Source of the DNA: Halomicronema sp. CCY15110
Lineage (GTDB): Bacteria; Cyanobacteriota; Cyanobacteriia; Phormidesmidales; Phormidesmidaceae
DNA length: 64,000 nt
Reading direction: 5' to 3'
Assembly (NCBI RefSeq): GCF_016888165.1
Contig: NZ_JACSWC010000387.1
Location: 1-64,000, forward strand
The position numbers and the translations under genes are program-made. The notes under the pieces were generated by a model. It was not told the origin of the DNA, did not search any database, and worked only from the letters and a program-made list of their open reading frames with translations. Numbering within the stretch: position 1 is the first letter of the stretch; the number at the start of each line of letters is the position of its first letter. This document shows positions 11,843-16,021 of this stretch, piece after piece.

Positions 11843-13969
11843 TTAGTCTCTTGGGGGCCATGCGTTAACCCATGAATTAGCTAACGCGATTTTGTCTGTG
11901 GTGTAGGTTTGAATCAGCGCGGCTGCGATCGCGCTCCCGGCAAAGGCCATCACCGCAGGGACGACTGGCAACCAGCCCGCTTGGGTGGCGACACCGATGG
12001 GCACACCGACTAAGACGATACTGCCCGCTACTAAGCCCAGTCCTAAGACTCGTAGACGTTTACCCTGACGCCCCAATATTACCCCGCCCGTTGCGCCCCC
12101 GACGATCCACACCAGTTCCACGGCCTCGGGCACCGCCCACGGCAGCGGCTGGCCATCGAGGGCGGCGGCGACGATCTGACTCGTTGCATGGGCGTGCAGC
12201 ATCACCCCAGACATCAAAAAATCCTCTTCAGCCGTGGCACTGTAAGGGGTTAGGAAAAAATCTTTGGCCGAAGCGGCGGTGGTGCCGATCAAAATGATGC
12301 GATCGCGAATCATTTCAGCCTGAAATTGCCCGTCTAAGATCTCGCCAATCGTAATGGTGGGAATCGTGTCATTAGCGCCCCGGTATTGCAGCATGATCTG
12401 ATAACCGGCAGCGTCCATCTGGCGATAGCCGCCAAAGTTTGGCTCTAGCGGCACAAAGGTCGCGTCGTTGAGCGCCAGATACTCGGCATTGACGGCACTG
12501 GCTCGGGGCACAAGGCCGCGCGGCTGCAAATAAGCCAGGGCCAGTCGCAACGCCAGCGAATGAAAAATCTCCGTGTCGGGGCGATCGTCCGCCGTGGCGT
12601 AAATTAAACTGCGGCGCACTACCCCATCAGCATCCACCGGAAAATCATTAAAGCCCACCCGTTCTGGGGGCATACCGCGCGGAGCGGGAATCCGTTCGGA
12701 CGGGCTGGTGCCCAACTGCCGAATCGCCACCACATTGTCCGCCGCCAGCGCGGCGAGCAGTTGATCATGGCCGTCGCCTTGGGGAATGTCGCGATATAAA
12801 TCTAGCCCAATCACTTGCGGATCATAGGTTTGCAGCGTGGTGATGAGTTCGGCCAACACGGCATCACTCGGCGTCGGTTGTTGCAGTCGCATCAAATCGG
12901 CTTCGGTGATTTCGACCACCAATAGGCGATCGTCCACGGGCGGTAGCGGTTGTCGTAGTACCCATTGGTCGTGCAGCCACAGCTCAATGGGTACCCAGCC
13001 CCCCAGGTGGCGAATGAGCAGCACGATCGCCACGATCACCACCGCCGCGATCGCCTGTCGCCCCGCCCGCAACTGCCACCCCGGTTTAACCGCATCAGAC
13101 GGCGACAGTTCCGTTGTCGCTAGGGCCGTGGCCGACGGAGTAGCTAACTCCTGATACTGGGCTAAATCGGCTAAGGCTGCCGCCGCTGAGGGATACCGCT
13201 GATAAATCGAGACATGGGTCAATCGATTTAAGAACACTTTTAAGCCGTCACTCACGGCAGGGGCACTTGCGATCCATTGCAACTCGCCCGTGACCGGATT
13301 TTCGGGTAGCTCGGTGGGCGATCGCCCGGTCAACCCGCGAATTACGGTCATGCCCAGCGCGTACAGATCGCTGCTGTAGCGGGGCCGTCCGGCCATTTGT
13401 TCAGGCGCAGCATAGCCCTGAGTGCCAATGCTCACGGTAAACCGCTCACTGTTCGCCGTGCCGAGCTCCGTGGTGATTTCCTTCACCGCGCCAAAGTCAA
13501 TCAAGACGTACTGACCATCAGCCTGCCGCCGCATCAAGTTGCTGGGTTTGATGTCGCGATGTACGACCTGTTCTTGGTGAATGAACGCCAAAATTTGCAG
13601 CACTGCGGTCAGCAACTCGACGGCTTCGGCCTCACCAAATTTCCCCAGCTGATTAAAGCGATCGCTGAGCGCATCGCCGTCAATAAACTCCTGCACCAAA
13701 TAAAACTCGCCTGCTAACTCAAAGGCATCCAACAAGGTGGGAATGGCCGGATGATTGCCCAGCCGTCGCATCACTTGGACTTCTGATTGAAATAGCCGTC
13801 TCGCCGTAGCCAAAAACTGGGCCGAGGTGTCGGCGGGCATGAGGTGCTTGATCACGCAGCGCAACTGCGATCGCTGCTCATCGACCGCCAAATAAGTTTG
13901 GGCAAAGCCCCCCTGCCCCAAGGGCCGCAACACCCGATACCGTTCATTTAGCCACTGCTCAGTCATCAA
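11843..13969 (-). CDS. Serine/threonine protein kinase with C-terminal CHASE2 sensor domain
   Basis: A 708-residue membrane protein. Residues 11-270 are a Hanks-type kinase with glycine loop LGQGGFAQTYLA, Lys41 in VIKHL, catalytic loop VHRDIKPSN (Asp139), DFG at 158-160 and the APEQM segment. A membrane helix follows at about 306-320, then an extracytoplasmic CHASE2 domain (about 330-615, WVLRQPLPPVDDRLLVV, QVIGLDLYRD, IILIGTTAAS), and two or three further helices near the C-terminus. The layout implies an outside signal controlling cytoplasmic phosphorylation. All kinase residues needed for activity are present. The ligand and targets are unknown. Confidence 0.94.
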   Translation of the reverse strand: MMTEQWLNERYRVLRPLGQGGFAQTYLAVDEQRSQLRCVIKHLMPADTSAQFLATARRLFQSEVQVMRRLGNHPAIPTLLDAFELAGEFYLVQEFIDGDALSDRFNQLGKFGEAEAVELLTAVLQILAFIHQEQVVHRDIKPSNLMRRQADGQYVLIDFGAVKEITTELGTANSERFTVSIGTQGYAAPEQMAGRPRYSSDLYALGMTVIRGLTGRSPTELPENPVTGELQWIASAPAVSDGLKVFLNRLTHVSIYQRYPSAAAALADLAQYQELATPSATALATTELSPSDAVKPGWQLRAGRQAIAAVVIVAIVLLIRHLGGWVPIELWLHDQWVLRQPLPPVDDRLLVVEITEADLMRLQQPTPSDAVLAELITTLQTYDPQVIGLDLYRDIPQGDGHDQLLAALAADNVVAIRQLGTSPSERIPAPRGMPPERVGFNDFPVDADGVVRRSLIYATADDRPDTEIFHSLALRLALAYLQPRGLVPRASAVNAEYLALNDATFVPLEPNFGGYRQMDAAGYQIMLQYRGANDTIPTITIGEILDGQFQAEMIRDRIILIGTTAASAKDFFLTPYSATAEEDFLMSGVMLHAHATSQIVAAALDGQPLPWAVPEAVELVWIVGGATGGVILGRQGKRLRVLGLGLVAGSIVLVGVPIGVATQAGWLPVVPAVMAFAGSAIAAALIQTYTTDKIALANSWVNAWPPRD

Positions 13970-14338
13970 TTCCGACGTTCCCCAGTATTACTGTTGCCGT
14001 TTCGGCAGGCCCGCAGCGCACCCCTGAAAGTCTCAGCCCCTGCTTTTTCAAAGCCTGCCCCAGTTGGCCCCTTGCTAGCGCCGTATCCTGATTACAGTCT
14101 GCGACCACCCATTTACCCATTTAATTTTCCAGATAGTGCAGCCGATGATCGGAGATTCAGCCTCGTGTGAGTGACGGCGGATTGACTACGCCGTATCAAC
14201 AGATGTTTTATGCTGATAAAGGCCCCACCCTGACTTGATCCCCCATGCTAATTAACGGGTATCAGCAGCGGCGTCTCCCGATTGCTCAGGCAGCAACTTG
14301 AGTCTCAGGCTTGCCCCTTTATAAATAATTATTTGAGA
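13970..14338. other. 369-bp divergent intergenic region
   Basis: This separates the kinase gene (minus) from the TerC gene (plus) and must hold both promoters. TerC genes are often preceded by a yybP-ykoY manganese riboswitch; I looked for its conserved loops here and could not find a convincing match. No gene is supported. Confidence 0.5.
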
Positions 14339-15196
14339 ATGCTAGATCGTCTACTCGATATATCTACCAATCTTGGCATTGATACCCTCTTGTTGCTGCC
14401 GGTTTTGATTGCGCTGGAAGCGGTGTTGTCGGCGGATAATGCGATCGCCCTAGCCGCGATCGCCCAGGGGCTAGAGTCGGAAAAACAGCAGCAGCGCGCC
14501 TTAAATGTCGGGCTGGTGGCGGCGTTTGTGCTTCGGATGCTGCTGATCTTGACCGCGTCTTGGGTGCTGCGGTATTGGCAGTTCGAAGTAGCTGGGGCCG
14601 TTTATCTACTGTGGTTGGTCTATCAGCATTTCACGGCGACAGAAGACGACCAACATCATCACCACGGCCCTCGGTTTGCCTCGGTTTGGCAAGCGGTGCC
14701 GACCATTGCCTTAACCGACCTCGCCTTTTCGCTAGATAGCGTGACGACCGCGATCGCCCTATCCCGCGATGTTTGGATCGTCTTGCTGGGGGGCAGCATC
14801 GGCATTCTCACGCTGCGCTTTATGGCCCAGCTCTTTATCCGCTGGCTCGACGAATATGAATACTTGGAAGATGCCGGGTTCATTACCGTCGCGTTTGTGG
14901 GCATTCGATTACTCCTGCGGGTCGCCAATGACAGCTGGGTGCCGCCCCAATGGCTCATGATCCTGCTCATTGCCGGGGTCTTTGCCTGGGGCTTTTCCAA
15001 GAAAACCCAAACCGCCGACGAGCCTGCTACCGATGTCGTTGCCGCCGCCCCCGCAAACGGTCACCTAACTGCGACAGACGATGACCTGGCGATGCCCACC
15101 GCTGAGTCCGCTGCTACATCTGCTACTACAGTCGAGGCATCTCGCCAACCGGCAGGCGTAACCAGCCGTGACCAGGAGTTGCCCCAATCGGAATAA
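14339..15196 (+). CDS. TerC family membrane protein (probable metal exporter)
   Basis: From the ATG at 14339 the protein has 285 residues and about seven membrane helices. The two TerC acidic signatures are present: EAVLSADNAIALAAI in the first helix and ALTDLAFSLDSVTTAIALS in a later one. A His-rich loop (DDQHHHHGP) lies between them, and the C-terminal 50 residues are a polar Ala/Thr/Asp-rich tail. TerC relatives move manganese or calcium, or support metal loading of exported proteins. In photosynthetic organisms related proteins act in thylakoid biogenesis and Mn or Ca supply. The exact cargo here is inference. An earlier in-frame start at 14282 is less likely. Confidence 0.88.
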   Translation: MLDRLLDISTNLGIDTLLLLPVLIALEAVLSADNAIALAAIAQGLESEKQQQRALNVGLVAAFVLRMLLILTASWVLRYWQFEVAGAVYLLWLVYQHFTATEDDQHHHHGPRFASVWQAVPTIALTDLAFSLDSVTTAIALSRDVWIVLLGGSIGILTLRFMAQLFIRWLDEYEYLEDAGFITVAFVGIRLLLRVANDSWVPPQWLMILLIAGVFAWGFSKKTQTADEPATDVVAAAPANGHLTATDDDLAMPTAESAATSATTVEASRQPAGVTSRDQELPQSE

Positions 15197-15549
15197 TGTT
15201 TGTTGGCGGCATGGCAGGATCGGCTAGCCCGCCCACCCACCAGAAATTCATAATGCGCCAAGACTGGATGAGAAAAGTCGAGGAGAAATAAACTTTTACC
15301 ACGTTTTATCTCGTTTGAAGACGCCTAGTGAATACTATTTCACGGTAAGGAAATCTGCCGCGATCGCCCATTAAAATCAGGTTGTCGGCAATCAGCGTCG
15401 CGTCCAGCCTCAGAGCTTCAACCGCTCTGACTTCGCGATTTTGGCTACGCTTACCTACTTTGGTTGACCCTCCATCGTTAACTGAGCTGACGCCCATACG
15501 ACGCAACATTGCATCACTCCATGCCGTTGGCATGTGGAGAGGAGGCACC

Positions 15550-15672
15550 ATGAAACGCACTTCGGTTTTGCCTTATCCCTTGACGCTCTATCCCCTCGTC
15601 AGGAACTTGTTTCGCGACTCTGCGGTTTTGACGTTTACGTTTTTGGTCCTGGCAGGCCTCATTTGTCTGTAA
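15550..15672 (+). CDS. 40-residue single-helix membrane peptide
   Basis: A short ORF starts at the ATG 15550 behind a strong Shine-Dalgarno (GGAGAGGAGG, about four bases upstream). It encodes 40 residues: a basic N-terminus (MKRTSVLPYP), an arginine at the interface and a hydrophobic C-terminal stretch (DSAVLTFTFLVLAGLICL) that would span the membrane. Size and layout resemble small photosystem or cytochrome b6f subunits, but I do not recognise it as any named one. The strong ribosome site is the main reason to call it real. Longer in-frame starts from 15382 look unnatural. Confidence 0.5.
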   Translation: MKRTSVLPYPLTLYPLVRNLFRDSAVLTFTFLVLAGLICL

Positions 15673-15718: not shown

Positions 15719-16021
15719 CTAGTCGCTAGTGCAGCGAATGACCTGTTGCTCACGATAGGCGGCACTGAAAAATGATAGTAAGCGATCGCCCACAACCTGA
15801 GTACGTGCCCAGGTTGCCGAATCTAGCGTGTCTTTTAACAACAGCAACTCGTGTACCAAGGCGTTTGCCTGAGCGGGTGAGATTGTCGGGTCTGCATAAT
15901 ATTGCTGCCAAAGTTCGTTTAGGCCAGGGAATCGCGGATCGTCAATGACAAAGCTGAAGATAAAGTCTTCATGGGGCGCGATCGCAGCTTGTCGGTCACC
16001 GCAATACAACTCAAAGCTCAT
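15719..16021 (-). CDS. Hypothetical protein (100 aa)
   Basis: I do not recognise this protein. It is soluble, aromatic and mainly helical in appearance (NELWQQYYADP, ALVHELLLLKDTLD, RLLSFFSAAYREQQ), with no signal or membrane segment. It ends 34 bp upstream of, or downstream from, nothing obvious: the DUF900 hydrolase gene stop is on the same strand 35 bp before this start, so the two are probably co-transcribed with the hydrolase first. The composition is consistent with a small regulatory or immunity-like partner, but that is only a guess. Confidence 0.7.
   Translation of the reverse strand: MSFELYCGDRQAAIAPHEDFIFSFVIDDPRFPGLNELWQQYYADPTISPAQANALVHELLLLKDTLDSATWARTQVVGDRLLSFFSAAYREQQVIRCTSD

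Follow-up and report, generated by a model that had tools for sequence, protein, structure and literature searches.

The window analysed here is a stretch of 64,000 nucleotides from Halomicronema sp. CCY15110 (contig NZ_JACSWC010000387.1), and it contains a short frame on the plus strand (15550-15672; ATG at 15550, TAA at 15670-15672) that translates to the 40 residues MKRTSVLPYPLTLYPLVRNLFRDSAVLTFTFLVLAGLICL. Four nucleotides 5' of the ATG lies a ribosome-binding site, GGAGAGGAGG (15536-15545, plus strand), which is identical in the two nearest relatives, G001 and G005, and contains a 6-nt exact piece of AAGGAGGT; the 58 loci of the family described below contain 7063 other ATGs, just 3.2% of which have a piece of at least 5 nt. 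The N-terminal head carries a net charge of +4, the last 18 residues, which reach the stop, are the most hydrophobic stretch (Kyte-Doolittle mean 2.08), and AlphaFold2, from an alignment of only 6 rows, modelled a single helix at residues 13-39 with a mean pLDDT of 78.6. These features agree with an earlier note on this DNA, which had described a very strong ribosome site, a basic head and one membrane helix. The product looks like a tiny one-helix membrane protein, and as such the gene belongs to an ordinary kind of object, the membrane microprotein. A gene for a terC-family membrane protein is found at 14282-15196 (plus strand). The region also encodes a fusion of a protein kinase with a CHASE2 domain (11843-13969, minus strand) and, just behind the small gene, a 100-aa frame without a Pfam match (15719-16021, minus strand).

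A first homologue search of 59 genomes returned matches at E<=1 in nine, which were convincing in six, the source genome included. The five relatives belong to the genus or the family of the source, and their homologues are full-length, each with its own ribosome site, at identities to the window protein of 88% (G001), 75% (G005), 53% (G004), 50% (G012) and 46% (G015). In these 6 of 59 genomes the start, ribosome site and stop are in register and the lengths are equal; all six genes open with ATGAAA behind a purine-rich site, and their stops fall within one codon of the same place. The earlier note had held that its proposal would fall if close relatives did not conserve the frame and a translation signal were lacking; the frame is conserved and the ribosome site supplies the signal. 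The 23 substitutions that separate the window gene from its nearest relative, G001, fall 7, 2 and 14 at first, second and third codon positions, and they leave 5 non-synonymous and 14 synonymous codons; the corresponding counts are 10 and 15 against the second-nearest relative, and again 10 and 15 between the nearest and second-nearest relatives. In simulations of random substitution, non-synonymous counts as low as those observed were reached in 0, 0 and 2 of 5000 runs for these comparisons, and in 0, 0, 2, 0 and 0 of 5000 for all five pairs tested. Judged by this strong bias to synonymous sites, purifying selection is acting on the 40-residue frame. That it is instead a chance frame or a conserved non-coding RNA, as its shortness and the conservation of upstream blocks might suggest, is extremely improbable, because the codon-position pattern and the simulations rule out a chance frame, conservation falls past the stop codon, and Rfam returned no match for the window gene or among 20 family loci. 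The frame is almost certainly a genuine gene missed by annotation, and the suspicion of an overlooked small-protein gene was well placed. Two members of the genus returned no match by any profile: G002 allows no judgement at this place, where its contig ends, and G003, which is 99% complete, has terC with different sequence behind it, an absence that counts against a universal role.

Two blocks upstream of the gene are conserved in the source genome, G001 and G005, one at about 15290-15400 and the other in the last 35 nt, with much weaker conservation between them. The first (plus strand) is probably the promoter region and includes a possible -10 element at 15372-15377 (plus strand; TAAAAT, TAAAAT and TAAGAT in the three genomes) and an imperfect inverted repeat, GTGAATACTATTTCAC (15328-15343), that is identical in all three and may be a regulator site. 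The source genome holds one exact copy of GTGAATACTATTTCAC and three with two mismatches, and a GTGAA-N4..8-TTCAC repeat lies upstream of only 3 of the 58 family loci. A scan for sigma-70-like promoters, by consensus only, found none on either strand between 15197 and 15900. The second block reads CTCCATGCC..GGCAT..GGAGAGGAGG and could form a hairpin, CTCCATGCC-GTT-GGCAT-GT-GGAG (15517-15539, plus strand), that pairs the first GGAG of the ribosome site. Its stem letters are identical in the three genomes, with a varying loop, and being invariant they give no covariation support; it also folds no better than shuffled sequences (z -0.9; 42, 21 and 37 of 200 shuffles as good in the three genomes). 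In G012 another stem could pair part of the ribosome site.

Profile searches indicated a larger family. Used alone, profile A2 detected these six genomes and no others below 1e-5 in the 388 of the class, and within the order it added G020 at 3.1e-4 (63 genomes, which make up both the family and the order and are one sample). Widening the profile with G020, and then with four weak yet well-formed candidates, brought in many more: 59 of 388 cyanobacterial genomes matched at E<=0.05. After iteration 64 of the 388, spread over 35 of 159 genera, matched at E<=0.02, a count in which many genomes supplied profile rows and match by construction. Among 254 genomes of the phylum, 15 matched at E<=0.01, of which two outside the class were weak and had no proper frame. 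We read 58 loci, leaving out weaker matches such as G177, G148, G075, G241, G258 and G336, and found a start in each, a ribosome site in most, and in most a stop just past the helix. Candidates at L007, L013, L014, L018, L019, L020, L030, L047, L048, L050, L051, L053, L064, L097, L104, L109 and L110 were dropped, as they have no ATG-started short frame ending just past the core; L098, whose sole start is GTG and which lacks a ribosome site, was retained by synteny. The 58 proteins are 25-76 aa long (median 33), and in 48 of them the C-terminus is at most 4 residues from the most hydrophobic stretch, the remainder, mainly an MQRSSEFPLF-like subset, having a tail of 19-29 residues. A correctly placed ribosome-site match of at least 4 nt precedes 55 of the 58 starts, against 14% of the 7063 background ATGs, a comparison in which the choice of start was partly guided by the site. 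These one-helix proteins share the core F-x-[QED]-[ST]-x5-[GSA]-F-L, with conserved positions F21, Q/E/D23, S/T24, a small residue at 30, F31 and L32. The search pattern anchored F21, S24 and F31 and left 23 and 30 free, and at these two positions Q/E/D and G/S/A reach frequencies of about 0.89 and 0.88. The family is a widespread, patchy cyanobacterial family of one-helix microproteins without a name in the databases searched.

The core of the window protein, FRDSAVLTFTFL, fits that of the family except for T at position 30, a residue at a frequency of about 0.06 there. A model built from the 49 members outside the terC/ndk-linked group was run against 21,667 open frames from loci that earlier matches had picked out, which makes the pool a biased one. 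It recovered G022 (7.9e-6), G020 (1.4e-5) and G014 (2.2e-4) and scored the window branch at 0.079 (G015), 0.52 (G004), 0.54 (the window protein, rank 74 of 21,667) and 1.8 (G012). With a direct score of just E 0.54, the membership of the window protein is transitive, and the link between its branch and the wide family depends on bridging members and common neighbours rather than on a strong direct match. The window-branch model ranked the G020 member first (1.1e-5), with frames lacking the right layout from 1.1e-4 on, and hhalign aligned the window branch to the wide family with P 7.7e-6 and a probability of 84%. The neighbours terC (6 loci) and ndk (4 loci) span both branches: terC adjoins the gene in the source genome, G001 and G005, and lies across ndk in G020, G022 and G014, while ndk follows the gene in G012, G020, G022 and G014. 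The window protein very probably represents a diverged, terC/ndk-linked branch of the wide family, to judge from these alignments and neighbours. An unrelated small membrane protein limited to this cyanobacterial order, resembling the others through convergence of hydrophobic helices, would account for the weak direct scores between the branches and for the six of 388 genomes that A2 alone found below 1e-5. We regard this as unlikely, given that G020, G022 and G014 bridge the two sets and have the neighbours of the window branch, that G020 is matched from both sides at about 1e-5, and given the hhalign result.

Genomes encode up to four family copies, sometimes in tandem; at L107, L144, L149 and L105 the family genes stand a few hundred nucleotides apart. 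The source genome has a second, shorter copy of 33 aa on contig C78 (L091, G000:C78, about 8.1 kb), and G001, G012 and G015 likewise have second copies on other contigs. Downstream of the L091 paralogue are gvpK and a gvpF/L-like gene, a pair found beside the short paralogue in four genomes, but a gas-vesicle link was rejected as local synteny only. A 156-aa frame 0.6 kb downstream of this paralogue comprises GvpK and a C-terminal Gas_vesicle domain (Pfam), and a Ca-type P-type ATPase-like frame lies upstream of it. A phage or plasmid origin was also set aside: the window protein had no match in plasmids or phages, and the short paralogue none in plasmids. No neighbour is constant across the 58 loci, which makes this a stand-alone gene. 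Four of the 58 (L143, L152, L157 and L158), all of one subfamily and drawn from three families of cyanobacteria, are preceded at 0.3-1.2 kb by nblA in the same orientation. It is the sole photosynthesis-related lead, and the context leads, nblA, terC and P-type ATPases, are all weak.

The best mechanism we can propose, to which we would give an even chance, has the protein serve as an accessory helix docked to a larger complex in the membrane. The gene would have its own promoter, and its strong ribosome site would drive translation. By the positive-inside rule the basic head would lie on the cytoplasmic side, and the helix, running to the C-terminus, would insert in the cell or thylakoid membrane. 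There the conserved positions, F-x-[QED]-[ST] where the helix meets the membrane edge and [GSA]-F-L within it, might pack against a partner. This partner would be a membrane protein with several spans, or a complex, and the helix would tune how it assembles or works; a polar pair at the edge combined with a small-aromatic pair in the helix suits packing on a partner helix. The docking face itself is hypothetical, as one-sided conservation around the helix was not significant (permutation p 0.40).

A narrower version has only a small chance of being right: the family would supply an accessory subunit or an assembly factor, so far overlooked, to a complex in the thylakoid membrane, perhaps linked to pigment through the conserved interface Q/E/D, and lineage-specific copies such as that of the window would adapt the complex. 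The earlier note had pointed to the many photosynthetic subunits of this size while finding the peptide unlike the named ones. The second observation holds. A place in a photosynthetic complex is no more than a possibility: the Protein Data Bank contained no related chain for the 33-member family profile (best E 1.6, a beta clamp), and the patchy occurrence of the family (64 of 388 genomes) argues against a core subunit.

A type I toxin is also unlikely; on this reading the peptide, small and hydrophobic, would be silenced by an antisense RNA and by the hairpin at its ribosome site. The short single helix, the strong ribosome site, the several copies, which some genomes have as tandem pairs spaced 0.2-0.3 kb, and the stems that pair part of the ribosome site in three genomes and in G012 are consistent with such a system, and a first cyanobacterial type I system, MsoT1, has been reported (PMC12390103). 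Against it, the consensus scan showed no sigma-70-like promoter on either strand, the hairpin folds no better than shuffles, tandem copies are exceptional, and matches in plasmids and phages are lacking for the window protein. The polar core Q/E/D-S is also conserved across families, which to our knowledge is not typical of type I toxins.

KdpF, AcrZ and sarcolipin are small regulators of transporters, and a regulator of this kind, here of TerC or a P-type ATPase, is likewise unlikely. Consistent with it, terC is a neighbour in 6 loci, a Ca-type P-type ATPase-like frame (read by eye) precedes by about 1.5 kb the short paralogue of the source genome and its G001 counterpart, and a metal P-type ATPase-like frame (also read by eye) lies about 1 kb upstream in G020. 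However, the gaps to terC are at least 350 nt, the orientation is opposite in G020, G022 and G014, and most of the 58 loci are without these neighbours.

On sequence evidence, the gene is genuine and had been overlooked, and its family should be of use. Annotation misses cyanobacterial microproteins such as this one, and a nameless family with a fixed core motif, found in 35 of 159 genera and often multicopy, is a concrete gene set for study. Pfam, NCBIfam, PHROGs and PADLOC gave no meaningful match for the 33 rows of A5, a literature text search for the family core strings returned no paper, and none of the small-protein papers found describes the family in its title or abstract opening, in a search largely outside the subscription literature. 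PsaM, PetN, PsbT, NdhP and others are small subunits of PSI, PSII, cytochrome b6f and NDH-1, which resemble the window protein in size and in their single helix but differ in that no solved chain matches the family profile and the family is patchy. HLIP/CAB proteins are likewise one-helix cyanobacterial proteins, and many members of the wider family have G-F inside the helix; their chlorophyll-binding motif, ExxNxR, is however absent from the window protein. MsoT1 of Microcystis is also a small hydrophobic cyanobacterial membrane protein, but by its description it is longer, at 63 aa, and has two predicted helices and a pI of 11.17, and its antitoxin RNA delays toxicity in E. coli (PMC12390103). 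SliP4/HliR1, a 37-aa protein of Synechocystis 6803 with one helix and a light phenotype (PMC5126843, PMC12850537), is alike in being a cyanobacterial microprotein that had gone without annotation, is about as long and likewise has its own promoter. Its ends, the only parts compared, are encoded by the published primers as MSNLIAVAF at the N-terminus and a polar stretch at the other end; they are without the core motif and have nothing in common with the window protein (PMC5126843). Cyanobacterial microproteins, SliP4 and others, repeatedly control photosynthesis and metabolism (PMC12850537).
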